A DNA stretch of 46,816 bases from Cryobacterium sp. (GTDB taxonomy: Bacteria > Actinomycetota > Actinomycetes > Actinomycetales > Microbacteriaceae): NCBI RefSeq assembly GCF_025463825.1, contig NZ_JAODBG010000123.1, positions 1 to 46,816 of the forward strand. Direction: 5' to 3'. Made by a program: the position numbers and the translations under genes. Numbering within the stretch: position 1 is the stretch's first letter; every line of letters starts with the position of its first letter. The notes beneath the pieces were generated by a model. That model ran no database searches. It saw only the letters and a list, made by a program, of their open reading frames with translations, and had not been told where the DNA came from. Shown piece after piece: positions 1 to 43,291 of the stretch.

Positions 1-942
1 CGAGCGCGGGGCGGCGGCCGCGGCCGCAGCGGCCGCCGCCGCGATAGCAGCCTGCCTGGCCCGCTCGGCTTCTTCAGCCGCGATCCTGGCGCGTTCGATC
101 ACACCGGCCTGGTAGGCCGCAGCGGTCGTTGCTTCCGCATCCTGCATGAACTGGAGCTGCGCCTCGAGCTCGATGCTCTTCGCCTCGGATTCGGCCAGGG
201 CCCCGGCCGCGGCGTCCGCGGCGTCCTGGGCGGCCGCCATGGCGGCTTCCGCGGCAATTCTGAGGGTTTCCCGCTCGGCCTGGGCGATCGCGGCCTGGTC
301 GCGGAGCGACTGCGCCGTGTTGTTGGCGGTCTGAGCCTGGTCGTAGACGTCGGTGCTGCGTTCGACGAGCTTGCTCATGCTGCCGAGCTTGGACAGGAGT
401 TCGTCGGCGCCTTCGCCGCTTTCCTGGCCGTCGATGAAGAGGTTCACGCTGAGGTCGGTTCCGCCGGTGCGGTAGAGCTGCGCGGCCAGCTGGCCGGCCT
501 GCCGGGTGGCCGCATCGGCCTGGGTCTTGCTGGCATCGGCCTGGGCCTGCAGGTCGGATGCGCGCAGGCTGGCATCGTCGAACTTCTCCTGGGCCACCTG
601 CAGTTCGAGGCCCCTGGCCTCTGCTTCGGCCTGGGTCCGAGCCACCTCGGCCTGCAGGCCGGCGATGGCGTTCTGGATCTCGGTGACCTGATTGGCGGCG
701 GCGGCGGTGTTCGACTTCGCCGCCTGGAGGTCTTCCCAGCTCGGGTAGTCGATGGCCATGGCGGGACTGATCGGGCTGGCGAGGGTCACCGCGAGGGTGA
801 GGGCGGCGACAAAACCGGTCACGCCCATTCCCAGTCGGCGTGACGGCGCCCTGCGGGTAGCGTGCTTCGTTCGAAGGGTCGGTCGCATCCGGTGCAGACC
901 AGCCTTGATGCCGCGGCTGATCACGGTTGCCGTGCTCTTCAT
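1..942 (-). CDS. Secreted coiled-coil cell-wall hydrolase-like protein (3' end outside window)
   Basis: The reading frame starts at ATG 942 and stays open to the window edge (314 codons). A basic N-terminal stretch is followed by a hydrophobic segment (near residues 40-63, ending SPAMA) that looks like a signal peptide. The rest is Ala/Gln/Glu-rich heptad sequence typical of coiled coils, including a SVNLFIDG-like hinge around residue 170. The ending is an Ala-rich run. This is the layout of actinobacterial coiled-coil proteins that carry a C-terminal NlpC/P60 peptidoglycan hydrolase domain (RipA/PcsB-like). The catalytic domain would lie outside the window, so hydrolase function is inferred. 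GGGGAG sits only 2 nt before the ATG, so a slightly different start is possible. Confidence 0.7.
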   Translation of the reverse strand, partial: MKSTATVISRGIKAGLHRMRPTLRTKHATRRAPSRRLGMGVTGFVAALTLAVTLASPISPAMAIDYPSWEDLQAAKSNTAAAANQVTEIQNAIAGLQAEVARTQAEAEARGLELQVAQEKFDDASLRASDLQAQADASKTQADAATRQAGQLAAQLYRTGGTDLSVNLFIDGQESGEGADELLSKLGSMSKLVERSTDVYDQAQTANNTAQSLRDQAAIAQAERETLRIAAEAAMAAAQDAADAAAGALAESEAKSIELEAQLQFMQDAEATTAAAYQAGVIERARIAAEEAERARQAAIAAAAAAAAAAAPRS

Positions 943-1191
943 AACTCCCCGATCGGGCTTTCGTTAGTCACATCCGTCACTGTGGCAACACTCGTCACAA
1001 TAACAAACCCGGCTGAGACCCGGGCTCCGCACAAAATCTAACCCGTGAACCTCGCAATACCCGGACCATTCGCGGGCGCGGTGAGAAGCGACACGCCGAA
1101 GCGGCAGAGCGCGCAAAACGGATTCAAGCCCGGAATGACGCGGCAGAAGGCCCCTCGGCGGCACGCGACGAACGGGCCAGGCGCGGCCGAT
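943..1191. other. Intergenic region between the cell-wall gene and the tRNA cluster
   Basis: No convincing gene was seen here. The part just upstream of the minus-strand gene holds three GTGAC copies (read on the minus strand within 963-1000). It also has a short CCGG...CCGG inverted repeat near 1008-1023. These may be regulatory, but nothing more can be said. Confidence 0.4.
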
Positions 1192-1221
1192 TTGGGCATT
1201 CCGGCTTTTCCATCTTATGAT
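1192..1221 (+). promoter_or_regulatory. Housekeeping-type promoter for the tRNA cluster
   Basis: TTGGGC (1192-1197) and TATGAT (1216-1221) are separated by 18 nt and lie about 35 nt upstream of tRNA-Glu. This fits a primary-sigma promoter with a start near 1228. Confidence 0.6.
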
Positions 1222-1256
1222 TATGCGTCGGAAGTTCTCAGCTTCCGCAGAAGCAC

Positions 1257-1329
1257 GGCCCCATCGTTTAGTGGCCTAGGACACCGCCCTTTCACGGCGG
1301 CAGCACGGGTTCGAATCCCGTTGGGGTCA
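1257..1329 (+). tRNA. tRNA-Glu (anticodon TTC)
   Basis: A cloverleaf folds with a 7-bp acceptor stem (GGCCCCA with TGGGGTC, one G-U pair). The anticodon arm CCGCC-CTTTCAC-GGCGG gives anticodon TTC, and the T arm ACGGG-TTCGAAT-CCCGT is canonical. The discriminator is A1329. CCA is not encoded. It is the first of three closely spaced tRNAs. Confidence 0.97.
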
Positions 1330-1399
1330 CGCAATACTGTAGGTTGTACAAGGCAAGAAAAAGCACCACGGATTCACCGCACGAAAAGCATTCCAGTTT

Positions 1400-1476
1400 G
1401 GCCCTGTAGCGCAGTTGGTTAGCGCGCCGCCCTGTCACGGCGGAGGTCGCCGGTTCAAGTCCGGTCAGGGTCGCCA
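1400..1476 (+). tRNA. tRNA-Asp (anticodon GTC)
   Basis: The acceptor stem GGCCCTG pairs with CAGGGTC (one G-U). The anticodon loop CTGTCAC gives GTC, and the T loop is TTCAAGT. The discriminator is G1473 and the next three bases are CCA, so the 3' end appears encoded, unlike the neighbouring Glu and Phe tRNAs. Confidence 0.97.
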
Positions 1477-1485
1477 AGGCGACAA

Positions 1486-1513
1486 GCCCTTTCGAAAGAA
1501 GGGGCTTTTCTCC
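1486..1513 (+). terminator. Rho-independent terminator after tRNA-Asp
   Basis: A 10-bp stem AAGCCCTTTC / GAAGGGGCTT (one G-U pair) with a GAAA loop is followed by TTCTCC. It could separate the Glu-Asp transcript from tRNA-Phe or act as a processing hairpin. Confidence 0.7.
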
Positions 1514-1543
1514 TTACAGAAGGTGCTCTCGTAGCCGCCTTCT

Positions 1544-1616
1544 GGCCCTGTAGCTCAGTTGGTAGAGCGTTCGACTGAAAATCGAAAGGTCACCGGATCG
1601 ACGCCGGTCGGGGCCA
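1544..1616 (+). tRNA. tRNA-Phe (anticodon GAA)
   Basis: The acceptor stem GGCCCTG pairs with CGGGGCC (one U-G). The anticodon stem TTCGA/TCGAA encloses the loop CTGAAAA with anticodon GAA. The T arm is ACCGG-ATCGACG-CCGGT, so position 54 is A instead of the near-universal T and position 60 is G. CCA is not encoded. All other identity features look normal. Confidence 0.95.
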
Positions 1617-1619
1617 CTT

Positions 1620-1658
1620 GGCCATCCCTTGGGCTTCTACCGGGGGGTGGCCTTTTTT
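1620..1658 (+). terminator. Rho-independent terminator of the tRNA cluster
   Basis: GGCCATCCC pairs with GGGGTGGCC across a loop of roughly 15 nt and is followed by six T (1653-1658). It lies directly after tRNA-Phe. Confidence 0.85.
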
Positions 1659-1747
1659 CATGCCCCGAACCGTGAGCTATACACCCGGAACTCCCGGATG
1701 GACGTACTCTTTTCACGGCTCGCGGATGTGTATGCGACGATGTGGGC

Positions 1748-2539
1748 ATGAATCGCTCCGCATCCGCCCATCTCGAGCTGGAAGCCCTCGGGCCCGCCCA
1801 GCTGGTCCTGTCCGTGACCGTCGCCGCGGATGCCAGCGCCACCGAAGTTCTGAGCATCGTCCAGGACGGCCTCCCGCTCCCCTACCGGGAGACTCTCGAC
1901 CAGCACGGCACCCGGTTGCAGCTGATCTCGGTGCGGGCCGGGCGGATCGACATCGACTACACGGTCGAGGTCACGGGTGAGGCCGTGGCGCCGGAGGTGA
2001 CCGACATCGACATCGTCCGCTACCTCCGCCCGAGCCGGTATTGCGAGTCCGACCACCTGTGGCCGACCGCCCAGGCGCAGTTCCGGGGGCTGAGCGGCAC
2101 CGAGCTGCTCACCGCCGTCACCGCCTGGGTCGGGTCACACCTGGCCTACGTACCCGGTGCGAGCCTCCCCACTGATGGCGCGGTGCGCACCCTGCTGGCC
2201 AGGCAGGGCGTCTGCCGCGATTACGCGCACCTGGTCATCGCGTTCCTCCGCGCCCACGACGTGCCCGCCCGACTGGTGTCGGTCTACGCGCCGGGGCTGT
2301 CGCCGATGGATTTCCACGCCGTGGCCGAGGCCTACCTCGACGGGGCCTGGCAGGTCGTGGATGCGACCGGACTCGCGCCCCGCCAGTCGCTCATGCGCAT
2401 CGCCACGGGCCGGGATGCGGCCGACACCGCGTTCCTGTCATCCGCGGGCGCCGCGGTGCTGCTGCGCGTTCTCCGGGTGACGGCCGTCGCCGAGGTGCTG
2501 CCCCGCGACGACGTCGGGCAGCCGGCCCGGCTGGGCTGA
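1748..2539 (+). CDS. Transglutaminase-like cysteine protease-fold protein
   Basis: This 263-residue protein has an N-terminal all-beta region, as in bacterial transglutaminase-like proteins (about residues 1-85), followed by a transglutaminase core. The catalytic triad is visible: Cys in GVCRDYAHL (about residue 156), His in DFHAVAEAYL and Asp in VVDATGLAP. There is no signal peptide, so it is probably cytosolic. Members act as amide-bond hydrolases or transferases, but the substrate here is unknown. ATG 1742 is two codons upstream and in frame, so the start could be either. It stands alone between the tRNA terminator and the decayed polysaccharide locus. Confidence 0.85.
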   Translation: MNRSASAHLELEALGPAQLVLSVTVAADASATEVLSIVQDGLPLPYRETLDQHGTRLQLISVRAGRIDIDYTVEVTGEAVAPEVTDIDIVRYLRPSRYCESDHLWPTAQAQFRGLSGTELLTAVTAWVGSHLAYVPGASLPTDGAVRTLLARQGVCRDYAHLVIAFLRAHDVPARLVSVYAPGLSPMDFHAVAEAYLDGAWQVVDATGLAPRQSLMRIATGRDAADTAFLSSAGAAVLLRVLRVTAVAEVLPRDDVGQPARLG

Positions 2540-2642
2540 CCGCCCGCGTCGTAGTCAATCCGGCCACGCCGGCCGAACCGGGGCATACTGAGGTCGACCT
2601 GACGCACTGACCCAGTCTGCACAACCATTCGGGACGGCACTC

Positions 2643-3245
2643 ATGACGCAAGAAACCGACCAGATCGCCCCCACCGCCGACGTGGGCCCTCGCGCGGTGG
2701 TCGGGACCGACGTGACCGTTTGGCACCTCGCGCAGGTGCGGGAGGACGCCCGCGTCGGGTCAGGGAGCAGCCTCGGGCGCGGCGCATACGTCGGCCCCGG
2801 GGTCATCCTTGGCGCCAACTGCAAGGTACAGAACTACGCGCTCATCTATGAGCCGGCGGTACTCGGCGACGGCGTCTTCGTCGGGCCGGCGGCTGTCTTC
2901 ACAAACGACGCGTTTCCCCGGGCCATCAACGTGGACGGCAGCCGCAAGAGCGCGGACGACTGGGATGCGGTGGGTGTCGTAGTGGGGACCGGGGCCTCGA
3001 TCGGCGCTCGGGCCGTCTGCATCGCCCCGGTCAGGATCGGCCGCTGGGCCCTGGTGGCGGCGGGCGCCGTCGTGACCCGGGATGTGCTCGACTTCGCCAT
3101 CGTCGTCGGGGTTCCCGCCCGCTAGGTCGGCTGGGTCGGGGAGGCGGGGGTCCCACTGGTTCGGGCTGGTGCCCTGTACAAGTGCCCGGTCACCGGGGCC
3201 AGCTATCGCGAGACCGACGGCGCACTCTCGGCCGCCCCCGCGTAG
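2643..3245 (+). pseudogene. Left-handed beta-helix acetyltransferase of nucleotide-sugar type, cut by an amber codon
   Basis: Hexapeptide-repeat acyltransferase resembling WbpD/WlbB enzymes that N-acetylate UDP-amino-sugar uronates for surface polysaccharides. Codons 1-160 give the beta-helix coil, with a His in VWHLAQVRE, QNYALIYE and FTNDAFPRA. A TAG at 3123-3125 follows GVPAR. The same frame then continues VGWVGEAG... and ...LYKCPVTGASY to a TAG at 3243-3245, giving a 200-residue frame whose tail matches the family C-terminus. A CAG-to-TAG change (Q161 stop) is the simplest explanation. The stub keeps the acyltransferase core and could retain activity. It is the first of several broken polysaccharide genes here. 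Confidence 0.75.
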
Positions 3246-3300
3246 ATCACCCCCCGAAGGGGCCACAGCGGCCGACCAGGAACGAGGTTAGTGTCGGCGA

Positions 3301-3329
3301 GCCGGAGCTGAGAATCAGTCAGCTCCGGC
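3301..3329. repeat. Perfect 11-bp inverted repeat upstream of a leader ORF
   Basis: GCCGGAGCTGA (3301-3311) and TCAGCTCCGGC (3319-3329) are separated by 7 nt. No T tract follows. The position, between the acyltransferase remnant and the leader ORF at 3366, suits a terminator of the first gene, an operator, or a hairpin in the 5' UTR. Confidence 0.55.
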
Positions 3330-3352
3330 GCCCGCCGAATCTGCACCGTCCC

Positions 3353-3380
3353 GCAGGGAACCATTGTGACTCCGTCCCTT
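3353..3380 (+). promoter_or_regulatory. Duplicated leader initiation element, copy 1
   Basis: A 28-nt stretch with 23 bases identical to 7142-7169. It contains GCAGGG as a Shine-Dalgarno, then ACCAnTGTGACT with GTG at 3366-3368 as the start codon of a short leader ORF. Confidence 0.55.
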
Positions 3381-3455
3381 CCAGGAACGCCCCACGCGCA
3401 CGGCGCACCGGACCCCACGGCGCTCGCCCCTGCCGGTCCGGATGGTCGCCGATGA
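3366..3455 (+). CDS. Putative 29-residue leader peptide of the decayed polysaccharide operon
   Basis: A GTG start sits 7-8 nt after a GCAGGG Shine-Dalgarno. The 29-codon frame begins MTPSLPGTP, is Pro/Ala/Gly-rich and ends in TGA 3453-3455, which overlaps ATG 3452 of the first Wzz-like gene in an ATGA junction. A second leader of the same design (7155-7280, beginning MTTSL) precedes the intact operon. The shared initiation site and identical coupling geometry support real translation. The peptide has no recognised domain, and its role is probably to couple ribosomes to the next gene. Confidence 0.45.
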   Translation: MTPSLPGTPHAHGAPDPTALAPAGPDGRR

Positions 3456-4154
3456 CCGTTCGCGAGATCCTGGCCGCCATGCTCCGACGGTGGTACATCC
3501 CGGTGGGAATACTCGCCTGCGCCGCGCTCGTCACCGTCATGCTCGCCCGGGACGGGGGCGTCTACACCGCCAGCACCGTGGTGACTTTAATGCGTTCGTC
3601 GTCGACCAGCTTGTCACCCAACAACGGAGCCGACGACTCCAGCGTCGTCGCGTATGCCGGTGCAGTCGTCAACGCCATCAACAACGGCCGGCCCCCTGCA
3701 CGGTACTCGATGGATGACGCCCCGTACTATGGCGCCGGGGTGCGCGAGGGGGTGCGCGTCGACCTGGCTGACGCGGGCAACCAATGGGTTTCCGCGTTCA
3801 GCAGGTCGGACGTTGAACTACAAATTGTCGGCCGCTCGTTGGATGGGGTCCGGTCGCAGCAGGATCAGCTGGTCGACCTCGTGCTCAGCTTCGCTGACGC
3901 CGAGCAGGCCGTGCTGATGATCCCGGAAGAAGACCGGATCACGGCGGTTGTGGCGCCGCTCACCACGCAGATCGAATACGTTCATGCGTCCCGCGACAGT
4001 CAGTTCGGAGCAGCCGGCGCAATGCTCGCCGCCGCCCTCATCTTGGGCGCATGGGGTTCAGTTGCAGGACCGTCTGCTCTCACACCGACGGGTTGCCACA
4101 CGCCCGCAAGGCCACGATTCGTCCCGTCGCATCCTGGAAGGAACCTCATCATGA
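3452..4154 (+). pseudogene. Wzz-like polysaccharide chain-length membrane protein, frameshifted
   Basis: It starts MTVREILAAMLRRWYIP, with a first membrane segment at about residues 14-32. An extracytoplasmic region and a second hydrophobic segment (FGAAGAMLAAALILGAW, about residues 190-206) follow, the topology of actinobacterial Wzz-like chain-length regulators. Just after GAW the frame is lost. The natural ending (DRLLSHRRV...LEGTSS) is read in another frame and stops at TGA 4152-4154, overlapping the next gene's ATG by ATGA. One inserted base in the G run near 4051-4055 would explain it. As it stands, the original frame runs on into the next gene, giving an accidental fusion. Confidence 0.7.
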
Positions 4155-4940
4155 ATCTCGCCGACACACTCCGGGGACTTTGGAGGCGCTGGTACATCGT
4201 GGTCCCGGGGATACTCATCGCCGCCGTGCTCGCCGTCAGCGTCTGGACAATGATCCCCCCCTGGCCACGAGCGTTCGTCGCCACAGCTCCTCATCCGCCG
4301 GTGCCGAAAGCATGCCGGAAGGTGCCAACCCCTACCTGTTTCTCGGTGGTCTCTCGCCGGCAGCCGACGTTATCGTCCGGGCGGTCGGCTCAGAGAACGC
4401 CACAAATGCAATCTTGGAGGACTACCCCGGAGCTGAGATCGAAGTATCGCGGGACACGAGCACTTCGGGACCGGTGATCCTCATAACTGTAACCGCGGCA
4501 AGCGACGGGGCGCGAAGGACGTCCTGGGGCTGCTCGTCGCACGAACCGCAACTGTGCTCGACGAGTTGCAGGAGACGGAAAAGATCGCTGCGGCGAATCG
4601 AGTGACCCTGCTGCCCATTACCGTTGACAGCCAGAGCGTCCTCGACCAGCGGATTCGGTTCATCGCGGTCGCCGCCACCGGTCTGGGCGGAGCGACACTC
4701 ACGCTGCTCGTCGCGGGTCTTGTTGACGGATTGAGCTCACAGCGGAAGCGGCGGAAAGATTTCGGCGCCGAGCAGGAGCTCGCCGACATCTCGTCGGGTC
4801 CGGATCTCGGACCGCGTGAGGACCGCGACCGCGACCCCATTCTCGCCACTGAGGCGACGAAGGCGACCACGTTGTTCGACCCGTCCAGCCGTGACAGGGA
4901 GCCAGACACGGCACCGACACCTGTCCGCAGCGCCCGGTGA
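4151..4940 (+). pseudogene. Second Wzz-like gene with two frameshifts
   Basis: It begins MNLADTLRGLWRRWYIVVPG with a membrane segment at residues 14-34. Homologous sequence then jumps frame twice. The first shift is in the C6 run at 4255-4260, where one extra C would restore IPPLATS...NPYLFLGGLSPAADV. The second is near 4506-4516, where one added base would restore SDGAAKDVLGLLVARTA. The last part (VLDELQETEK..., second membrane segment at TGLGGATLTLLVAGLV, acidic tail) ends at TGA 4938-4940. Paralogue of the preceding gene. The original stop overlapped the next start as GTGA, so these were once translationally coupled genes. Confidence 0.75.
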
Positions 4941-6273
4941 GCACAATGCTCGCTTCCCATCGGCGCCCGTGCCCGCGGCAGCATACGTCGGAGCCGCTGA
5001 TCGTCGAGATGTCGATGCCGTAACGATGCTCACGGTGTACCTGGTGCTGCTCTTGGCGATCCCCTCGGGGGTGGTGGTCAGTGCCCTCGGTGCGCTCGGC
5101 CACCCGTCTTTGATCTGGGGACTCGTCCTGCTGGTCTGGTGGGCGGTCTACCGGCTGCAGATGCCGGCCTCCGCGCCGGTGTCCCAGCCGGTGCGTTTCG
5201 CGTTCGTGGTGCTCCTGGTAGTCGTGCTTGTGAGTTTCGCCGCCGCCATGCTGCGTGGCCAGCCGGAGGACCAGGAAAGCCCAGCGGTCACGGCGGTCAT
5301 CCGGATGCTGTCGTGGGCAGGAGTGCTGCTCGTCGCTGTCGACGGAATCCGCACCCTGCACGATCTTGCCCGCATGGCGCGCCAGATCGGCATCGGCGCT
5401 GGCCTGCTGGCGGCCCTCGGTCTCGCACAGTTTCTCTCCGGGCAGGCGCTCGTCGACTTCTTCGGCACGATTCCCGGCCTGACAATGTCAGGCGGTATCG
5501 GAGAACGTGCCGGGTTGATCCGCTCGTCCGGAACGGCAATCCATCCGCTGGAGTACGCGACCGCGATCAATGCCGCCCTTCCGCCCGTCATCGCCGCAGC
5601 GATTTCGCGCGGGTTCCGGTCGGACCACCCGCGCGGGAGCTTGTGGTGGTGGCTGCCCGTCGGCTTCATCGTGGTCTCGTCCTTGGTTGCCGTCTCTCGT
5701 TCGGCCATCATCGGATGCGCGGTGGCGGTGATCTCGATGATTCCGGCGCTTCCGGTTCGGTATCGGGGCCTTGCCATCGGCACCGGAGCCATCGTCGCGA
5801 TAGTGACCTTTGCGGCGCTGCCGGGTCTAGCCTCCACGACCTTCCGCCTGTTCTCGGGCGCGGCGGATGATCCGAGTACTCTGTCCCGCACGAGGGCGCT
5901 GGAGCGGATTCCCGAATTCATGTCCACCTCGCCCCTCGTCGGTTCGGGGTTCGGCATTTTCCTGCCCAGATATTACTTTTTCGATAACCAATGGGTGCTG
6001 ATCGCCATCGAGTTGGGCATCCTGGGCCTGTAGGCCTTCGCCGCCTTGTTCGTTGCCGGAATCTGGAGTGCGCGTCAGGCGCGGCGCTCCGGCACGACCG
6101 ACCTACGACTGCTGGGATACGCCCTGGCCGCGTCGCTTTTCAACGTCGCCATTCTCTTCGCCTTTTTCGACGGGCTCTCATTCCCGATTGCCGGCGGAAT
6201 GCTATTCGTCCTGGCAGGGCTGTGCGGATGCGTCCGCACCGTCGTCGGGGCAGAGGCGGTGCCCCCCGGGTAA
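4937..6273 (+). pseudogene. O-antigen ligase/polymerase-like membrane protein, amber-interrupted
   Basis: A multi-span hydrophobic protein (about ten membrane segments) with a periplasmic loop containing SSGTAIHPLEYATA, as in Wzy/WaaL-type polymerases and ligases. The frame MLTVYLVLLLAIP from ATG 5026 runs to IELGILGL and meets TAG at 6031-6033. The same frame then continues AFAALFVAGIWSARQ with two more membrane segments to TAA 6271-6273. TGG-to-TAG or similar would explain the stop. The original start is probably GTG 4937 (GTGA overlap with the gene before). That frame is lost near 4965-4980, so a further single-base deletion is likely at the 5' end. Confidence 0.75.
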
Positions 6274-6299
6274 ACTGCCACCCCGGTGGAGACCTGACC

Positions 6300-6432
6300 A
6301 TGCGCCGCGGACTTCTTGTCGTCGTCGTCATCCTCGCCGCCGCCGCCGTCGCCGTCGTGGCCCTCATCATCCAGGACGACGACACCCAAACGGCAGCGAT
6401 TTCTGATGGCTTGAGCGGGATCGAGCCCGGCG
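6300..6432 (+). pseudogene. Truncated N-terminus of a membrane-anchored secreted protein
   Basis: ATG 6300 has a GGTGGAG Shine-Dalgarno 8 nt upstream. It encodes MRRGLLVVVVILAAAAV, a clear signal anchor, then about 25 ordinary extracytoplasmic residues up to about GIEPG. After roughly position 6432 the strand is the antisense of a decarboxylase fragment, so the rest of this frame (to 6575) is not original coding sequence. Family unknown because too little is left. Confidence 0.5.
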
Positions 6433-6958
6433 TGGTTGCCGACAGCGACCGGGTGCTTGCGGCGGATGGCCTGGCCGAAGTTCCCCGAGGCCGCCAGCTG
6501 ATGATGCATCCCCCCGTCGACGACGAGGAACGTCGTGCCGCGGGATTCCTGCGGTCGAGGATCCTGGTGACATAGATTCCGCACTCCCCCACGAGGTAAC
6601 GGCCGAGCTCGATGACCGGGCTGGCCTGGGGCATCCGGTCAAGAATGGGCCCGTCGACGAGTTCCTGGAGGTTCGCGGCAACCACCTCAAGGTCCAGCGG
6701 CTGGTCCTTGTCGACGTAGGGGATGCCGAACCCGCCGCCCAGATTGAGGTATCGCACCGGAGTGGGCAGGTGCTCCGCGAGGTCGCTGACAAGGTCGACG
6801 GTGCGCCGTTGCGCTTCGGCGATGACGACCGCGTTCAGATTCTGGGAGCCGGCGAACACGTGGAAGCCGAGCACGTTCGCTCCCGCCGTGGCGAACTCGC
6901 GCAGCAGCGCCGGCACCTGTTCCGCGTCGATGCCGAACTGCTGCGGCCCACCCCCCTG
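6433..6958 (-). pseudogene. Internal fragment of a PLP-dependent decarboxylase (ornithine/DAP decarboxylase fold)
   Basis: Read from about 6958 downward, the frame gives GGGPQQFGIDAEQVP, GFHVFAGSQNL, NLGGGFGIPY (PLP phosphate-binding Gly-rich loop), PVIELGRYLVGECG and, after a frameshift at about 6550, TFLVVDGGMHHQLAASGNFG...VAVGN. This is the middle of a fold-type III decarboxylase of the kind found in exopolysaccharide clusters. It lacks the N-terminal PLP lysine region and the C-terminal Cys-Asp region. A missing A in CGCAAGGAA would explain the frameshift. Both ends are abrupt, and the fragment is inverted relative to its neighbours. Confidence 0.75.
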
Positions 6959-7141
6959 TTCTGGTCACAGCGCTGACAACGAAATGCGGGCTATGGTCAC
7001 GTCGTGAGTTGCTGAGCATGGCTCAGGAGTTTCACACCCGCCCTATCCGCTGATCCGAGTCTTACCACCCGTGGGCCACCCACCCACAGGCCCGGCCGCA
7101 GCACCGCTCCATCACCCGTTCTGAACCTGTAAACCCGAACT
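6959..7141. other. Non-coding region upstream of the intact exopolysaccharide operon
   Basis: No gene was seen. It contains a 6-bp inverted repeat CTGAGC-ATG-GCTCAG (7012-7026) and probably the promoter of the operon starting at the leader ORF, but no clear -35/-10 pair stands out. Confidence 0.4.
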
Positions 7142-7169
7142 GCAGGGGACCACTGTGACTACGTCCTTG
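7142..7169 (+). promoter_or_regulatory. Duplicated leader initiation element, copy 2
   Basis: Same 28-nt element as 3353-3380 with five mismatches. GCAGGGG is the Shine-Dalgarno and GTG 7155-7157 the start of a 41-codon leader ORF. Confidence 0.55.
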
Positions 7170-7280
7170 ACGTGTCGACCCATCCGTCGACCCCAGAAGC
7201 GCCAGCTACCCTCTCAGGGCAGCTGGGGCCCGCACTCCGCCTGCCCGGTGATTCCCGCAACCAGCGGTGGCCACACGTGA
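7155..7280 (+). CDS. Putative 41-residue leader peptide of the exopolysaccharide operon
   Basis: It starts with GTG after a well-placed GCAGGGG and begins MTTSLTCRP. It is basic and Pro/Ser-rich and stops at TGA 7278-7280. The stop overlaps GTG 7277 of the glycosyl-phosphotransferase in a GTGA junction. This mirrors the leader at 3366-3455. It overlaps the N-terminal extension of the longer frame open from GTG 7172, so only one of the two readings can be the main one. The better Shine-Dalgarno belongs to this leader. Confidence 0.45.
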   Translation: MTTSLTCRPIRRPQKRQLPSQGSWGPHSACPVIPATSGGHT

Positions 7281-8857
7281 GCACGTCTGAGCCGCGGACT
7301 CCCTTCACCGGATCGGTTCCGGCTGCCGCCGCACGCACACCGTTACGCCTGGTCGGGCCTGCGGCCGCAACCGGTCCGGTCCCCGCCTCGGTCCCGGTTC
7401 CCCCGCCGGTCGGCGACCCCGTCAGCGGACTGTCAGGGGCAGCCTGGGCGCGGCAATACCGCGCCCGGCTTGCCTCAACCGACGCCACGGTCATCGGCTC
7501 GGCCGTCACTGTCGCCTTCCTCGCCCGGTTCGTGTTCCCGAACCCGCTGGCAGACGCGGCCCAGCTCCCGCTCGCCCTCTGGGCGATACCCGCAATCGTG
7601 GCGATGACCTGGATCATCACCCTCACCACCTTCCGCACCCGCGATGCCCGCATCGTCGGCGTCGGCGCGAACGAGTACAAGCTCGTCATCAATGCGAGCG
7701 CGCTGGCCTTCGGCATGTTGGCCATCGCATTCCTGCTGCTGCAAGTTGACTCTGCCCGCCCCTACTTCGTTTTCGCCCTGCCGTTGGGACTCGCCGCACT
7801 CATATCGGAGCGCTGGCTGTGGCGGAAGTGGCTGATCCACCAGCGCCGCTTCGGCCACTACCTGGCCAGGGCGATAGTCGTCGGCGGCCGGGAAGACGTC
7901 GAGTACGTGGTTCGGCAGATCAACGAAAAGTTTGGTGCCGCATACCAGGTCGTGGGGGCCGCTCTGGCGGGCAACAGCACCACAAGCGTCACCTCGGCCG
8001 GGCAGCGTGTTCCCGTGGTCGCCGACTTCGCACACGTGGCCAGCGCTGCCCAGTCGCTGGGAGTGGACGCGGTGATCGTGGCCGGGCATCCGAGCCTGGG
8101 CAGCACCTTCATCCGCAACCTCGGCTGGGACCTGGAGAAGACGTCCGCGGAGCTCGTACTCTCCAGCCGCCTGACCGACATCGCCGGCCCCCGTATCCAC
8201 TTCCGACCCGTCGAAGGTCTTCCGCTCATCCACGTGGAAATCCCTCAGTACGACGGGGCAAAGCACGTCCTCAAACGTGCCCTCGACATAACCGTGGGCG
8301 GCGCCGCCCTGATCATGATCAGCCCGATGCTCGCGGTGATCGGCCTGCTGGTCAAGTTGGACAGCCCAGGCCCGGTGTTGTTCCGCCAGGAACGGGTCGG
8401 CCGCAACGGTCGGACATTTCACATGCTGAAGTTCCGGTCGATGGTGCGCACCGCCGAAGACGACCTGGCCGGGCTGCTGGACCAGAACGAGGGCGCGGGG
8501 GTGCTGTTCAAGATTCGCAGCGACCCCCGCATCACCACGATCGGCCGGGTACTACGCAAATACTCCCTGGACGAATTGCCCCAGCTGTGGAACATCGTCG
8601 TCGGCCAGATGAGCATGGTGGGCCCCCGTCCGCCGTTGCCGACCGAGGTCGAGCACTACGAGTCGCACATGCACCGCCGCCTGTACATCAAGCCCGGGCT
8701 CACCGGCATGTGGCAGGTCAACGGGCGCTCGAACCTCAGCTGGGAGGAGAGCGTTCGGCTCGACCTCTATTACGTGGAGAACTGGTCATTGGCGGGCGAC
8801 CTCATGATCATCTGGCGAACCTTCAAAATCATCATCCGACCACTGGGGGCGTACTGA
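7277..8857 (+). CDS. Polyprenyl glycosylphosphotransferase (priming sugar transferase)
   Basis: This enzyme transfers a sugar-1-phosphate from a nucleotide sugar to undecaprenyl phosphate at the inner face of the membrane, the first step of exopolysaccharide repeat-unit assembly. From GTG 7277 it is 526 residues. It has a Pro/Ala-rich N-terminus, about four membrane segments (roughly residues 60-180), a Rossmann-like middle domain (AIVVGGREDVEYVV) and the catalytic domain from about residue 332. Catalytic-domain motifs are KRALDITVGG, SPGPVLFRQERVG, FHMLKFRSM, DELPQLWNIVVGQMSMVGPRPP and KPGLTGMWQVNGRS. GTG 7172 is an in-frame alternative start with no clear Shine-Dalgarno. GTG 7277 is preferred because of GTGA coupling to the leader ORF. 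Confidence 0.93.
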   Translation: MSTSEPRTPFTGSVPAAAARTPLRLVGPAAATGPVPASVPVPPPVGDPVSGLSGAAWARQYRARLASTDATVIGSAVTVAFLARFVFPNPLADAAQLPLALWAIPAIVAMTWIITLTTFRTRDARIVGVGANEYKLVINASALAFGMLAIAFLLLQVDSARPYFVFALPLGLAALISERWLWRKWLIHQRRFGHYLARAIVVGGREDVEYVVRQINEKFGAAYQVVGAALAGNSTTSVTSAGQRVPVVADFAHVASAAQSLGVDAVIVAGHPSLGSTFIRNLGWDLEKTSAELVLSSRLTDIAGPRIHFRPVEGLPLIHVEIPQYDGAKHVLKRALDITVGGAALIMISPMLAVIGLLVKLDSPGPVLFRQERVGRNGRTFHMLKFRSMVRTAEDDLAGLLDQNEGAGVLFKIRSDPRITTIGRVLRKYSLDELPQLWNIVVGQMSMVGPRPPLPTEVEHYESHMHRRLYIKPGLTGMWQVNGRSNLSWEESVRLDLYYVENWSLAGDLMIIWRTFKIIIRPLGAY

Positions 8858-8858
8858 G

Positions 8859-10109
8859 ATGACCGATCCAACCGGCGGGGCCGAGGCGTCGAACCCTGCC
8901 TCTGCCTTGCACATCGCCATGATCGGCACCCGAGGGGTGCCGGCAGCATACGGTGGTTTCGAAACCGCCGTCGAGGAGATCGGCCGACGACTGGTCGACC
9001 GTGGCCATGCCGTCACCGTTTATTGCCGGCCGGGCTCGCCCGGCCCGGGCCCTGCACCCACCGAGCACCTGGGGATGCGCCTGGTCCATCTCCCTGCCAT
9101 TCATCTCAAGGTTTGTGAGACGCTGAGCCACACCGCTCTCTCTGTGGCACATGTCGCCACGCACCGGCGCCCGGACGCCGCGTTCGTCTTCAATGCCGCG
9201 AACGCCCCGTTCGTTCCGCTGCTGCGCCAACACGGCATCCCGACGACGGTGCACGTGGACGGCCTCGAGTGGAAGCGCGACAAATGGGGCGGCACCGCCC
9301 GACGCTACTACCGGTGGGCTGAACAGCAGTCGGTGCGCACCGCCGACGCCCTCATCGCGGACGCGCAGGGCATCGTCGACTACTACCGAGACGAGTTCGC
9401 CATCCCGACCGAGCTGATCAGCTACGGCACCAGGCTGCTGCACGCCCCGGCCAGCGACCGGCTGGCCGAACTCGGCCTCGCTCCCAACGGCTACCACCTC
9501 GTGGTCGCCCGGTTCGAACCCGAGAATCACGTGGACGTGATCATCGAGGGGTTCCTGCGCAGCAGCTCCCGGCTGCCGCTGGTGGTGGTGGGTTCTGCGC
9601 CGTATTCCGGTGCGCACGGCCGCCGGATCGCGGCACTGGCCGCCGACCCGAGGGTGCGGTTGATCGGCGGGCTGTGGGACCAGGACCAGCTCGACCAGCT
9701 GTACGCCCACTCGGTGAGCTACCTGCACGGGCATTCCGTCGGGGGCACGAACCCGTCCCTGTTGCGGGCCATGGGCGCGCGCACGGCGGCGATCGCCTGG
9801 GACGTCGTATTCAACCGGGAGGTGCTCGGTGTCTACGGTGCGTACTTCCGGGACTCCGCCACCCTGGCGTCCCTGATCGAGGACGCCGAGTTCAACCCGC
9901 ACCACACCCAGGAGGTCGGTGCGGCGCTGCAACGCCGGGCCGGCGACATGTACAACTGGGGCCACGTCACCGACAGTTACGAAGACCTCGCCCGCCGCCT
10001 CGTCGCCGGCTACAGCACCCACGGCGTCAGCGCCGGCCGAACCGGCCGGTCCCCGTTGCACCGACCGGAGCCTGCCCATCGACCCGTCTTCGTCAGGGGA
10101 TCGCTGTGA
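8859..10109 (+). CDS. DUF1972-type family 4 glycosyltransferase (rhamnosyltransferase-like)
   Basis: A 416-residue cytosolic glycosyltransferase that adds a sugar to the lipid-linked repeat unit. The N-terminal half carries the DUF1972 signature IGTRGVPAAYGGFETAVEEIG (about residues 21-41), with HVDGLEWKRDKWGG near residue 130. The C-terminal GT-B half has VARFEPENHVDVIIEGF and the donor-site region HSVGGTNPSLLRAMG, where the expected EGT/EGF-type Glu is replaced by GGTNPSLLRAM as usual in this subfamily. It starts 1 nt after the stop of the priming transferase and ends in a GTGA overlap with the next gene. Confidence 0.9.
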   Translation: MTDPTGGAEASNPASALHIAMIGTRGVPAAYGGFETAVEEIGRRLVDRGHAVTVYCRPGSPGPGPAPTEHLGMRLVHLPAIHLKVCETLSHTALSVAHVATHRRPDAAFVFNAANAPFVPLLRQHGIPTTVHVDGLEWKRDKWGGTARRYYRWAEQQSVRTADALIADAQGIVDYYRDEFAIPTELISYGTRLLHAPASDRLAELGLAPNGYHLVVARFEPENHVDVIIEGFLRSSSRLPLVVVGSAPYSGAHGRRIAALAADPRVRLIGGLWDQDQLDQLYAHSVSYLHGHSVGGTNPSLLRAMGARTAAIAWDVVFNREVLGVYGAYFRDSATLASLIEDAEFNPHHTQEVGAALQRRAGDMYNWGHVTDSYEDLARRLVAGYSTHGVSAGRTGRSPLHRPEPAHRPVFVRGSL

Positions 10110-10918
10110 CCGGCGTGACGCAGGCCCGTCCCGTCTCCGTGGCCGCCGTCATCCGGCAGCTTGCCGGAGCCCAGAAGACCGCCGCCAGGGGCGCACCCGC
10201 GTACTCGCTCTTCGTGAACCGGCCGTTGGGCCGGGTGCCGGCGGCCGTGGCCTTCCGGCTCGGCTGGCCCCCCGACATGGTGACCGCGCTCAGCGCCGCG
10301 TTCAGCCTGGCCGGGGTGCTGATCCTCGCGCTGGCCGCCCCCGACTTCGCCTCCGGGACCGCCGTGTGGCTGCTGCTCGCCGCCGGTTATGTCCTCGACT
10401 CCGCCGACGGCCAGCTTGCCCGGCTCCGCGGCGGCGGCAGCCCCGCAGGGGAATGGCTCGATCATGTCGTCGACGCATGGAAGATTTCCAGCGTGCACCT
10501 CGCCGTGCTGGTGATGGCGTTCCGGCACCCCGTCGTACCCGACCCCGCCTGGCTGCTGATTCCCCTCGGATTCACCGTGGTTGCCGCTGTGGCCTTCTTC
10601 GCGATGATCCTCAACGATCTGCTCAAGGCCAAGTACGCCGCGACGGCCGCGACGGCCGGTTCGAGCTCGCCCCTGCGGGCCGTGCTCGGCCTGCCGACCG
10701 ACTACGGCGTGCTCTGCCTCTCCTTCGTGCTGCTCGGTGTCCCCCTGGTTTTCTTCGCAGTGTACACCGCGCTGTTCGCCGCCAACCTGCTCTACCTCAT
10801 GCTGGCGCTGGTCAAGTGGTTCAGGGATATGCGGGCCCTCGGCACGCCGGTCCGCCGGCCGGCGGCCGCTCCGCGGCATCGGGCCGAGGATTGGAGCGCC
10901 GGTGTCGATGCCCGCTGA
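10106..10918 (+). CDS. CDP-alcohol phosphatidyltransferase family membrane enzyme
   Basis: A 270-residue membrane enzyme with about six membrane spans. The family signature D-x2-D-G-x2-A-R-x8-G-x3-D-x3-D is complete in DSADGQLARLRGGGSPAGEW plus LDHVVD (about residues 93-117). These enzymes move a phospho-alcohol group from a CDP donor to an acceptor alcohol. Placement inside a glycosyltransferase operon suggests it decorates or anchors the polysaccharide through a phosphodiester, not that it makes ordinary phospholipid. The CDP donor could come from the cytidylyltransferase at 26816. The GTG start at 10106 is set by the GTGA overlap. The gene overlaps the next by 11 nt. Confidence 0.88.
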   Translation: MTGVTQARPVSVAAVIRQLAGAQKTAARGAPAYSLFVNRPLGRVPAAVAFRLGWPPDMVTALSAAFSLAGVLILALAAPDFASGTAVWLLLAAGYVLDSADGQLARLRGGGSPAGEWLDHVVDAWKISSVHLAVLVMAFRHPVVPDPAWLLIPLGFTVVAAVAFFAMILNDLLKAKYAATAATAGSSSPLRAVLGLPTDYGVLCLSFVLLGVPLVFFAVYTALFAANLLYLMLALVKWFRDMRALGTPVRRPAAAPRHRAEDWSAGVDAR

Positions 10919-11858
10919 CCTGGGCATCGTGGTGGTCAACTACGGTTACCCCACCTTGCTCGAGGAGAACCTCGTCCCGCTGGCGCGGCACCACCGCCCG
11001 GACCGTATCGTCGTCGTCGACAATTTCTCCGGTATCGCACAGCGAGCCGCGACGACGGCCCTCGCCCGGCGCGAAGGCTGGGCGCTCATCGCTCCGGCGC
11101 TGAACCTCGGGTTCGGCGCCGGCATCAACGCCGGCGCGAGCCACCTCATCGACAGGGGCTGCCAGCTCCTGTTGCTGCTGAACCCTGACGCCCTCATCGA
11201 CGAGGCCGGGGTGGGCGCGCTAGCCGATGGTTGCACGGCGAATCCGGCCAGCCTGCAGTGCCCCCGCATCGAACGCCCCGACGGCACGGTCTGGTTCGCC
11301 GGCGGCACGGTCAGGCTCGACACCGGACGCACCAGCACCCGCGTCGGCTCCGACAGCTCGGCCGCGAACGGTTGGCTCACCGGCGCGTGCCTGATGGTGC
11401 ACGCCTCGCTGTGGCAGTGGCTGGGTGGTTTCGACGAACGATATTTCCTCTACTGGGAAGATGTCGACCTGTCCTGGCGCTGCGCCGAGGCCGGCGGCTC
11501 CCTCGTGGTGCGCGACGACGTAACGGTCGTGCACGGCGTGGGCGGCACCCAGGCCGGTGCCGGGAAGTCCCCGCCCTACATGTACTACAACATTCGCAAC
11601 CGGATGCTGTTCGCCGCGACGCATCTGGACCGTCGCCGGCTGCTGCGCTGGTTCCTGCACAGCCCGGCCTATGCCATGGCGGTCCTGCAACGCGGCGGCC
11701 GGCGCGACCTGGCCCGCCATGGCGGTCCGCTCCTCCTGGCGGCGCTGCGCGGCACCGCACGCGGGATCGCGCTGACCGTGGCCGCCCTCACCAGCCCGCC
11801 CGACGCGCACAAGCTCAATCCGGGCCGACGACGCCAACCCGTCACGGAGGAACCATGA
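10908..11858 (+). CDS. Family 2 glycosyltransferase (rhamnosyltransferase-like)
   Basis: A 316-residue GT-A enzyme: GIVVVNYGYPTLLEENL at the N-terminus, VVVDNFSG, LNLGFGAGINAG, LLLNPDAL as the DXD-like site, WLTGACLMV, and FLYWEDVDLSWRCAEAG with the catalytic Glu-Asp. The pattern matches dTDP-rhamnosyl transferases of bacterial polysaccharides, though the donor cannot be fixed from sequence. No membrane spans were seen. GTG 10902 is an in-frame alternative start. The stop overlaps the next ATG (ATGA). Confidence 0.88.
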   Translation: MPADLGIVVVNYGYPTLLEENLVPLARHHRPDRIVVVDNFSGIAQRAATTALARREGWALIAPALNLGFGAGINAGASHLIDRGCQLLLLLNPDALIDEAGVGALADGCTANPASLQCPRIERPDGTVWFAGGTVRLDTGRTSTRVGSDSSAANGWLTGACLMVHASLWQWLGGFDERYFLYWEDVDLSWRCAEAGGSLVVRDDVTVVHGVGGTQAGAGKSPPYMYYNIRNRMLFAATHLDRRRLLRWFLHSPAYAMAVLQRGGRRDLARHGGPLLLAALRGTARGIALTVAALTSPPDAHKLNPGRRRQPVTEEP

Positions 11859-13117
11859 GCGCGCGCCACCGGCCGACAGCCGTACTTATCGCCCATCCCG
11901 GCGCCGAGCTCTACGGCTCCGACCTGGTGATGCTCGAATCCGTCAGCGCCCTCATCGAATCCGGCACGACCGTGACCGTAGCCTTGCCCGGCGACGGCCC
12001 ACTGGTCGGCGAGCTCGAACGGCGCGGTGCGACCACGGTGTTCTGCCGGACCCCGGTGCTTCGCAAGAGCATCCTGCACCCGGCCGGTGCCCTGGCCTTC
12101 CTCGGGGACGCTCTCGCCGGCACCGTCACCGGCATCGGATTGCTGCGCCGGACCCGCCCGGACGTGGTCTATGTCAACACCGTGACCCTCCCCTTGTGGA
12201 TCCTGCTCGCCCGGCTCCGCCACGTGCCGGTGATCGCCCACATCCACGAGGCCGAACGGAACGCCCCGGGCGTCATCCGCCGCGCCCTGGCGACCCCGCT
12301 GCTGCTCTGCCAGAGCGTCATCACCAACAGTGACCACTGCCGGAACGTGGTCTCAGAAACCTTCCCCGTACTCAGCTCACGGACCACCGTGGTGGCGAAC
12401 CCGATCGCCGGGCCCGAGCGGCCGGCGCCGGCCCGGGCCGATCTGGCGAATCGGGTGCGCCTCGTCTACGTCGGCCGGCTCTCCGAGCGGAAGGGTGTCG
12501 ACGTCGCCGTCCGCGCCGTCGCCCGGTACCGGGCGACCGGTCGACCGGTCGAGCTGCACCTCGTCGGGGACGTGTTCCCCGGCTACGAGTGGTACCTCAC
12601 CCGGCTGCACCAGCTGGTGCATGCCGAGGGCCTGGACAACAGCGTGTTCTTCCACGGATACCAGCGCAACGTCTGGCCGTTCCTGGCCGCATGCGACATC
12701 GTCCTGGTGCCGTCGATCCTGGAAGAAGGATTCGGGAACACCGCCGTGGAGGGCACCCTGGCCGCACGACCCGTCGTCGTGAGCGACACATCGGGACTGC
12801 GGGAGGCATCCGCCGGTTTCGCGTCGGCCCAACGGGTACCGCCCGGCGACGCCTCGGCTCTCGCGGACGCGGTGGCCAGGATCGTGCGGGACTGGCCGCA
12901 CGACCGGCTGGCGGCCGCGACCGACCGGATCCTGGCCCGCGATCGTCACGCGCTCGCGGGCTACCGGTTCGCCATCCGTACTGCGGTGTCGCAGGCGCTC
13001 CGCCCGGCCCCGGCCGGTTCCACCGTTCCCAGCCACCCGGCCGGCCGGCGTCCAGCACACGTTTTCAGTTCAGCACTCAATGAGGGGAAAGCACCATGGA
13101 ATCGGTCGACTATTTGA
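11855..13117 (+). CDS. Family 4 glycosyltransferase
   Basis: A 420-residue GT-B enzyme. The N-terminal acceptor domain begins AVLIAHPGAELYGSDLVMLES, and VIAHIHEAERNAPGV lies near residue 130. The donor-side signature is VRLVYVGRLSERKGVDVAVRA (about residue 200), with the E-x7-E element in EEGFGNTAVEG. Its last 22 nt overlap the start of the tyrosine-kinase gene, so the final residues (KAPWNRSTI) come from dual-coded DNA. Part of the coupled exopolysaccharide operon. Confidence 0.9.
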   Translation: MSARHRPTAVLIAHPGAELYGSDLVMLESVSALIESGTTVTVALPGDGPLVGELERRGATTVFCRTPVLRKSILHPAGALAFLGDALAGTVTGIGLLRRTRPDVVYVNTVTLPLWILLARLRHVPVIAHIHEAERNAPGVIRRALATPLLLCQSVITNSDHCRNVVSETFPVLSSRTTVVANPIAGPERPAPARADLANRVRLVYVGRLSERKGVDVAVRAVARYRATGRPVELHLVGDVFPGYEWYLTRLHQLVHAEGLDNSVFFHGYQRNVWPFLAACDIVLVPSILEEGFGNTAVEGTLAARPVVVSDTSGLREASAGFASAQRVPPGDASALADAVARIVRDWPHDRLAAATDRILARDRHALAGYRFAIRTAVSQALRPAPAGSTVPSHPAGRRPAHVFSSALNEGKAPWNRSTI

Positions 13118-43064: not shown

Positions 43065-43291
43065 AGAAGTATTTCTGGGTTGTGTTGAGTACATGGCAGT
43101 AGTACGTCGCACAGCGACGCAGCCTGAGAACCCGGGCAGTCTATGGCCGGGGCCGTTCACATACAGTGATTTTTCACCAGCGGATTACTGGGAAACCGGC
43201 CCATCCTGACTTACAAACCCATCCGCGCACACAATGAAACACGCGGTGTCAAGAGCCGACTTGTCTACGTTACCTGATCGAGTCCCAAAAG
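43065..43291 (-). promoter_or_regulatory. Long upstream region of the RNA helicase gene
   Basis: 227 nt with no gene between the helicase start and the pseudogene's end. It is less GC-rich than its flanks. A long 5' UTR would fit the cold-responsive helicases, but no conserved element was recognised. Confidence 0.35.

Follow-up and report, generated by a model that had tools for sequence, protein, structure and literature searches.

In the enterobacterial JUMPstart/ops system with RfaH, a short 5' element recurs in front of several long operons and marks them. Structured elements in the 5' untranslated region of exopolysaccharide genes are known as the epsC and wcaG RNAs, and the actinobacterial msiK RNA has been described as a hairpin that includes the ribosome site (PMC2864571). 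According to the account given in PMC11260477, a B12 riboswitch of Mycobacterium tuberculosis controls the upstream open reading frame (uORF) uPPE2, which overlaps the following ppe2 gene in AUGA, and ppe2 is expressed mainly by termination-reinitiation. Here, we analyzed a 46.8-kb contig (the window in what follows) from a Cryobacterium genome of 3.53 Mb, in which two short leader open reading frames (ORFs), each preceded by a hairpin that runs into its Shine-Dalgarno (SD) sequence, end on the start codon of a gene for polysaccharide synthesis. With moderate confidence we propose that hairpin, leader and overlap constitute a cis-regulatory translation cassette common to polysaccharide operons of the Microbacteriaceae, in which a hairpin over the ribosome site would control the leader ORF and termination-reinitiation would relay its state to the operon.

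The element in the window and in related genomes

An earlier note on the window had drawn attention to a 28-nt element at 3353-3380 (copy 1) and 7142-7169 (copy 2), and its description of the two sites holds. They are identical at 23 of 28 bases, both carry an SD-like run and a GTG, both open a short ORF (29 codons beginning MTPSL and 41 codons beginning MTTSL) and both ORFs end in a 4-nt overlap with the next start codon, ATGA in copy 1 and GTGA in copy 2 (Table 1). Taken by itself, the 23/28 match is weak evidence, since outside one repeat block the window holds 49 distinct pairs that match at 23/28 or better; six first-order Markov sequences as long as the window gave 1 to 6 such pairs each, and a chance expectation of zero for a pattern built from both copies would be circular. 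The significance of the two copies therefore lies in their position and in their conservation in relatives rather than in the match between them.

The upstream half of the element, a hairpin in front of the start codon (hairpin A, Table 1), had been overlooked. In relatives it is a near-invariant inverted repeat, CCTGTA-(A)ACCCGA-A(C/A)-TGCAGG-G(G/A)A, followed by GTG, and its 3' arm merges into the SD sequence. It is this hairpin that constitutes the most conserved part, and not the initiation site on which conservation had been said to be centred. A covariance model (CM) of 46 relatives and copy 2 gave its highest score in the window to copy 2, itself part of the model (63.9 bits, E 4e-16, span 7114-7163), and the second highest of the 43 matches listed to copy 1, which lay outside the model (16.5 bits, E 0.015, span 3334-3374). 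Copy 2 (7126-7280) is canonical and copy 1 (3340-3455) is drifted.

The pattern CCTGTAAACCCGAMYTGCAGG, with at most two mismatches, occurs at 25 places in 18 of 57 Cryobacterium genomes and its reversed control at none in the same 57. The covariance model (R1, 47 sequences) overstates the invariance of the arms because its rows were selected with the pattern. In the model search, the element was present in 55 of the 57 genomes at E <= 0.1 and in 54 of them at E <= 0.0014, at 78 places, with 7 weaker places left out. In a sample of the family it appeared in 41 of 299 genomes and 17 of 85 genera at E <= 0.01, with about 3 genomes expected by chance; the 41 include 6 Cryobacterium genomes and two matches judged false (G246, G253). 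The earlier note had made its proposal depend on conservation in relatives, and in 54 of 57 Cryobacterium genomes as well as in other genera such conservation was found. At the level of the order, 12 of 396 genomes matched at E <= 0.01, four of these inside the family. The eight outside it match weakly (E 3e-4 to 0.007) where about four are expected by chance, so that we take the element as a family trait and do not claim a wider spread. Altogether, 106 of 123 distinct places from the genus and family scans were examined.

No Rfam family matches the element, neither in positions 1-12000 of the window (matches up to E 5) nor in 12 related loci, so that it contains no known aptamer; epsC, wcaG and msiK are absent from the matches up to the same E value in positions 1-12000. 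The nearest matches, both sub-threshold, were M23 on the other strand (7301-7373, E 0.21) and cspA upstream of the element in locus L184. Among the matches listed in a search of the open literature, titles and openings of abstracts held no description of the element. The cassette looks so far undescribed and of a kind already known, namely a structured leader with a coupled uORF.

Hairpin, leader ORF and stop/start overlap

Conservation extends to four features: the sequence of the hairpin, its spacing from the start codon, the frame of the leader ORF and the overlap of stop and start. The short ORF possesses a ribosome site of its own, a G-rich SD-like run, and in the 90 elements measured the hairpin arm ends 6-11 nt before GTG or ATG, a range that the fixed length of the model itself narrows. 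At the expected place the start codon is GTG in 83 and ATG in 12 of 101 matches. In a strict count, which demanded a next ORF of at least 100 amino acids and dropped duplicates, the five weakest elements (L237, L238, L243, L244, L245) and three that lack a start codon where one is expected (L196, L198, L207), 78 of 94 unique elements end in the overlap, versus 4 of 94 when frame +1 and 13 of 94 when frame +2 was read; L196 and L198 also end in an overlap if their ATG is used. More broadly counted, 87 of 105 leaders with a start codon end between -20 and +3 nt from the start of an ORF of at least 100 amino acids. The 77 overlapping cases comprise 62 with an offset of -4, ten with -8 and five with -1, and their leaders range from 17 to 92 codons with a median of 40.

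Most of the genes behind the element are related to those of polysaccharide synthesis. As judged by tblastn, 81 of 93 unique elements are followed within 1.1 kb by a relative of one of four polysaccharide-type proteins: a priming glycosyl-phosphotransferase (GPT) in 61 cases (37 in Cryobacterium, 24 in other genera), a hexapeptide transferase in 16, a Wzz-like protein in three and a DUF1972-type glycosyltransferase in one, the reference itself. Among the 12 elements without such a class, L210, L150, L146 and one L211 copy have no Pfam match and L222 has a sub-threshold one. For the GPT of the window, the ORF caller preferred a start at 7172. We do not accept this as the main start, since what relatives keep is the overlapping one (-4 or -8), here GTG 7277. 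Of 45 long main genes whose start overlaps a leader, 19 have their frame closed by a stop codon within the leader and 12, that of the window included, have an in-frame upstream start there. Closure of the main frame inside the leader in 19 relatives also rules out that the leader is a frame-shifted N-terminus of GPT.

Since the substitution pattern in its frame is coding-like, the leader is probably translated. Among 12 close GPT leaders (123 nt in eleven, 126 nt in one), the ratio of non-synonymous to synonymous differences (pN/pS) in codons 2-16 is 0.60 versus 1.27 and 1.45 in the other frames; over the rest of the leader it is 0.86 versus 1.02 and 1.05, which amounts to hardly any constraint. 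Of the conserved leader peptide put forward in the earlier note, this coding-like constraint near the start stands, but the peptide itself, which is rich in Arg and Pro, is only loosely conserved: 85 leaders have Cys or Arg at position 7 in 54 cases, Arg at 8 in 58, Arg at 12 in 54 and Pro at 13 in 45. We know of no link of Arg or Pro to polysaccharide synthesis.

The same region harbors a second hairpin (hairpin B, GTCGAC-N6-GTCGAC), which starts at about +19 of the leader in many relatives and is absent from many other leaders. In 90 distinct leaders its arms pair in 65.9% of cells, as compared with at most 46.5% when the arms are slid; none of 1000 block shuffles exceeds 62.4%. Changes on both sides affect 43 cells, slid registers giving 33-41 and shuffles no more than 42, and in 61 leaders without the dominant arms 49.7% of cells are paired versus at most 38.8% when slid. 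Its folding energy is uninformative: the mean over 91 leaders is -6.5 kcal/mol, and control segments come to about -6.4. What support hairpin B has comes from register and paired variation. These data bear on the idea that the leader encodes a stalling peptide, in which rare CGA codons in a CR(P)..RRP motif would pause the ribosome at codons 8 and 12 and thereby set coupling or attenuation. CGA is indeed over-used, encoding 48 of the 58 Arg residues at position 8 and 35 of the 54 at position 12, although its share among 2285 Arg codons of the main genes is 7%, and it is read slowly in a bacterial his-leader assay, according to PMC4046918. However, the same bases form hairpin B and vary in a paired way in several sequences, such that the codons may be a side effect, and one group of Cryobacterium GPT leaders, as well as some other leaders, lacks the motif. 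We therefore regard stalling as decidedly unlikely; any reading that relies on the peptide only is weakened by the same overlap and absences.

The base composition of the leaders brings in Rho. If translation of a C-rich, G-poor leader shielded it from Rho, a closed ribosome site would lead to termination before the first polysaccharide gene, and the overlap would be a by-product. C exceeds G in all 88 leaders measured. Their mean (C-G)/(C+G) is 0.231, whereas the opening 300 nt of the main genes reach 0.078 and the opening 120 nt of 286 long ORFs from the loci 0.057. A scan of 3200-7400 detected no intrinsic terminator in either leader of the window, which counts in favor of Rho, and the sole terminator-like site (5938-5955) lies inside a Wzy-like gene. 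Rho-linked control through uORFs is known in mycobacteria; for uPPE2, on the other hand, mutants argued against Rho, as stated in the same source (PMC11260477). The C-richness is only moderate and could stem from Arg and Pro codons, and the location of the stop codon on the next start is left unexplained. Because the leaders are C-rich, we leave Rho-dependent attenuation a small share of probability and consider it unlikely.

The arms of hairpin A pair in 99.6% of 476 cells, nearly all by identity and with one UG for CG, and the fifth pair is a near-constant U.G wobble (86 UG and 7 UA in 93 rows). This wobble, together with the constant distance from the start codon, is the reason why we consider the element an RNA structure rather than a DNA operator. 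On the DNA level, CCTGTA...TGCAGG is an inverted repeat that could serve a DNA-binding protein, and a separate C/G-rich palindrome is located further upstream. A fifth pair of T/G instead of T/A or C/G in 86 of 93 rows would, however, be odd for a DNA dyad, and the element keeps its 6-11 nt to the start codon, whereas its distance from an upstream TANNNT box varies between 44 and 189 nt in the 53 sequences that fit the layout rule described below. An operator therefore appears very improbable. The first count of covariation was empty by construction, as the rows had been chosen with a pattern that fixes both arms. By eye, a paired change is apparent in four sequences (L226, L227, L241, L242, aligned by the model with a gap), where TCTGTA...TGCAGA has U-A for the outer C-G. 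In copy 1 the arms still pair (TCTGC/GCAGG), with C-G where other elements have U.G.

It could also be that nothing is regulated, and that a strong constitutive ribosome site with its leader ORF has been duplicated between operons of one locus and merely boosts translation of polysaccharide genes. Several genomes carry two or three elements, and these often lie within some 30 kb of each other on a single contig, as expected from duplication, and it further counts for this explanation that regulation is itself read from the sequence. A plain enhancer, however, needs neither a hairpin arm over the SD sequence nor a near-invariant ACCCGA loop, and we judge this explanation, too, to be improbable.

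Features of the window and the fate of copy 1

The features of the two copies are compiled in Table 1. In front of the elements a layout recurs which consists of CCCCC..GGG(G)T(C/T)ACAGCG, a gap of about 21 nt and TANNNT, followed by a hairpin that often reads CTGAG...TCAG. An automatic rule for this layout is passed by 53 of 94 sequences including both copies of the window, copy 1 through a TTAGTGT variant box written into the rule. Judged by the recurring layout, the C/G-rich palindrome (CCCCC..GGGG) together with (T/C)ACAGCG and TANNNT looks like a shared promoter/operator. A hairpin near the presumed 5' end of the mRNA likewise recurs in relatives, with varied stems (e.g. L149, L215).

Table 1. 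Positions of the leader, hairpin, putative promoter and main gene features of copies 1 and 2 in the window.
Feature	Position	Strand	Sequence or basis
Possible promoter, copy 1	3250-3293	+	CCCCCCGAAGGGGCCACAGCGG ... TTAGTG; layout as in copy 2
Strong 5'-end hairpin, copy 1	3301-3329	+	GCCGGAGCTGA-GAATCAG-TCAGCTCCGGC; -22.0 kcal/mol
Drifted hairpin A, copy 1	3340-3357	+	TCTGC - ACCGTCCC - GCAGG; loop motif lost; CM 16.5 bits
Leader ORF, copy 1	3366-3455	+	29 codons; stop overlaps Wzz-like start in ATGA 3452-3455; overlap also in orthologous element L117
Wzz-like chain-length gene	3452-4111	+	64% identical to element-led gene of L117 (residues 1-219 of 233), tblastn
Possible promoter, copy 2	6951-6997	+	C-run, GGTCACAGCG (6963-6972), TATGGT (6992-6997); layout shared with other elements
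5'-end hairpin, copy 2	7012-7026	+	CTGAG-CATGG-CTCAG; in predicted fold; similar place in many relatives
Hairpin A, copy 2	7126-7146	+	CCTGTA - AACCCGAAC - TGCAGG; exact pattern match; CM 63.9 bits; formed in predicted fold
SD-like AGGGGA of leader ORF	7144-7149	+	Sequence
Leader ORF, copy 2	7155-7280	+	41 codons (MTTSLTCRPIRRP...); stop overlaps GPT start in GTGA 7277-7280
Hairpin B	7174-7191	+	GTCGAC - CCATCC - GTCGAC inside leader ORF, from +19
Priming glycosyl-phosphotransferase GPT (Bac_transf)	7277-8857	+	Pfam PF02397, E 3e-68 on 7172-8854 translation

Copy 1 corresponds to the Wzz-linked element of L014/L117 (C. fucosi); in L209 and L214, too, an element is followed by the Wzz-like gene. 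The earlier note had spoken of two polysaccharide operons and had missed that the genes of one of them, that of copy 1, are broken. Comparison with L014 identifies the region 2613-6280 as the remnant of a second polysaccharide operon: the hexapeptide transferase gene (2613-3236) contains a stop codon at 3123-3125, the match to a second chain-length gene is split between two frames at about 4512-4533, and a stop codon at 6031-6033 interrupts the Wzy-like gene (4990-6246). Sequencing errors could also account for the breaks. Copy 1 is thus probably in decay, and this would account for the agreement between the copies lying mainly near the initiation site.

Between the two operons, the minus-strand frame 6140-6916 looks like a gene fragment, its first 109 residues matching the end of a decarboxylase PLP-binding domain (Pfam PF02784, E 1.6e-11, profile positions 143-246 of 247). 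A weak look-alike of the ribosome-site part of the element (CAGGGGATCGCTGTGAC, 13.4 bits) is located at 10094-10110, at the end of the glycosyltransferase ORF 8859-10109. Three tRNA genes (1257-1616) lie upstream of the polysaccharide region, and near-identical short repeats, 36, 57 or 75 bases apart, occur at 42456-42740 within the minus-strand ORF 41124-43160.

Proposed relay and comparison with known systems

In the translation cassette that we favor, the mRNA would form the hairpin CCUGUA/UGCAGG with the loop (A)ACCCGA, the 3' arm of which is continuous with the SD sequence of the leader, and when closed would occlude the leader's ribosome site. Once the hairpin is opened, or bound via its near-invariant loop by a protein, a small RNA or a ligand, ribosomes could start at the leader GTG; a factor reading the loop may just as well enforce occlusion as relieve it. 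Translation of the leader would then end in the ATGA, GTGA or TGATG overlap and lead to reinitiation at the start of the first polysaccharide gene. From the conserved features we infer that the hairpin folds and closes the site, that the leader is translated and coupled to the next gene and that a regulator exists. We further suggest, tentatively and leaning slightly against it ourselves, that one trans-acting factor, be it an RNA-binding protein, a small RNA or a metabolite, recognizes the ACCCGA loop in several mRNAs and thereby switches the polysaccharide locus as a whole, the leader ORF being an interchangeable relay through which one ribosome-site switch can drive unrelated first genes.

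Several observations weigh against this cassette. Regulation by it is deduced from sequence. Support for hairpin A comes mainly from sequence identity, and conservation is mainly one of RNA sequence and geometry: in 98 distinct rows no pair is changed on both sides and the pair counts do not exceed those of shuffles, a helix pair is broken in L213 and L223, and the predicted fold of 7012-7200 includes both hairpin A and hairpin B but does not exceed shuffled sequences in stability (z -0.31). A scan of 3200-7400 with the sigma-70 consensus yielded no promoter site. Independent initiation of the main genes is possible, given that 24 of the 77 overlapping ones have a GGAG or GAGG core near their own start (7% of 8338 ATG/GTG codons in the control). 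Finally, 16 of the 94 elements end without an overlap. Four of the exceptions stop a few nucleotides short of a start (L172, L241, L242, L229), no overlap was found for L162, L223, L195, L240, L235, L212 and one of two copies each of L211 and L214, and L222, L205, L231 and L234 have long frames. In L222, L205 and L234 a large ORF is opened directly by the start codon of the element with no leader, and in L207 the same holds by a TTG only. L222, L205 and L234 look as if a leader had been lost or never gained.

If the cassette operates as proposed, the Microbacteriaceae share a post-transcriptional handle on exopolysaccharide production that acts at translation and makes repeated use of a dedicated leader ORF for relaying ribosome access to the next gene. 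The near-invariance of the loop makes a trans-acting factor open to direct search.

Like JUMPstart with RfaH, the element is short, recurs and stands at the 5' end of several operons, and its role, if the proposal is correct, would be comparable but exerted at the level of translation. The hairpins of LoaP share this recurrence, but have a UNCG loop as described in PMC12691694, which hairpin A does not have. A search for a NusG paralogue in the 57 Cryobacterium genomes found none: exactly one NusG-family match is present in 56 of them, that of G043 being a fragment, and G033 has zero. Because of this single NusG, control of the RfaH/LoaP type is unlikely and was rejected as an explanation. With the epsC and wcaG RNAs the element has in common that it precedes exopolysaccharide genes, and with the msiK RNA that a hairpin comprises the ribosome site, as far as these are characterized in PMC2864571. 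It resembles the Corynebacterium ilvB-II motif, a uORF attenuator (PMC10272879), in being a conserved actinobacterial RNA motif that is in part a short ORF; there, a peptide enriched in branched-chain amino acids is reported and attenuation has been proposed, whereas for the leaders studied here we know of no amino-acid logic of the pathway, and the two in the window lack an intrinsic terminator. The ATGA and TGATG overlaps are those of termination-reinitiation gene pairs (Huber et al., 2019; PMC6728339), with the difference that the latter work, as presented there, concerns general gene pairs and not a short leader ORF behind a conserved RNA element. A close parallel is uPPE2-ppe2, which likewise combines an actinobacterial 5' leader, RNA structure at the ribosome site of a short ORF and a stop codon overlapping the main start. 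As described in PMC11260477, that system is a single operon with a B12 aptamer, whereas the arrangement proposed here would serve several polysaccharide operons through an element without a counterpart in Rfam. By analogy with uPPE2-ppe2, the suggested relay step has a tested precedent in actinobacteria.

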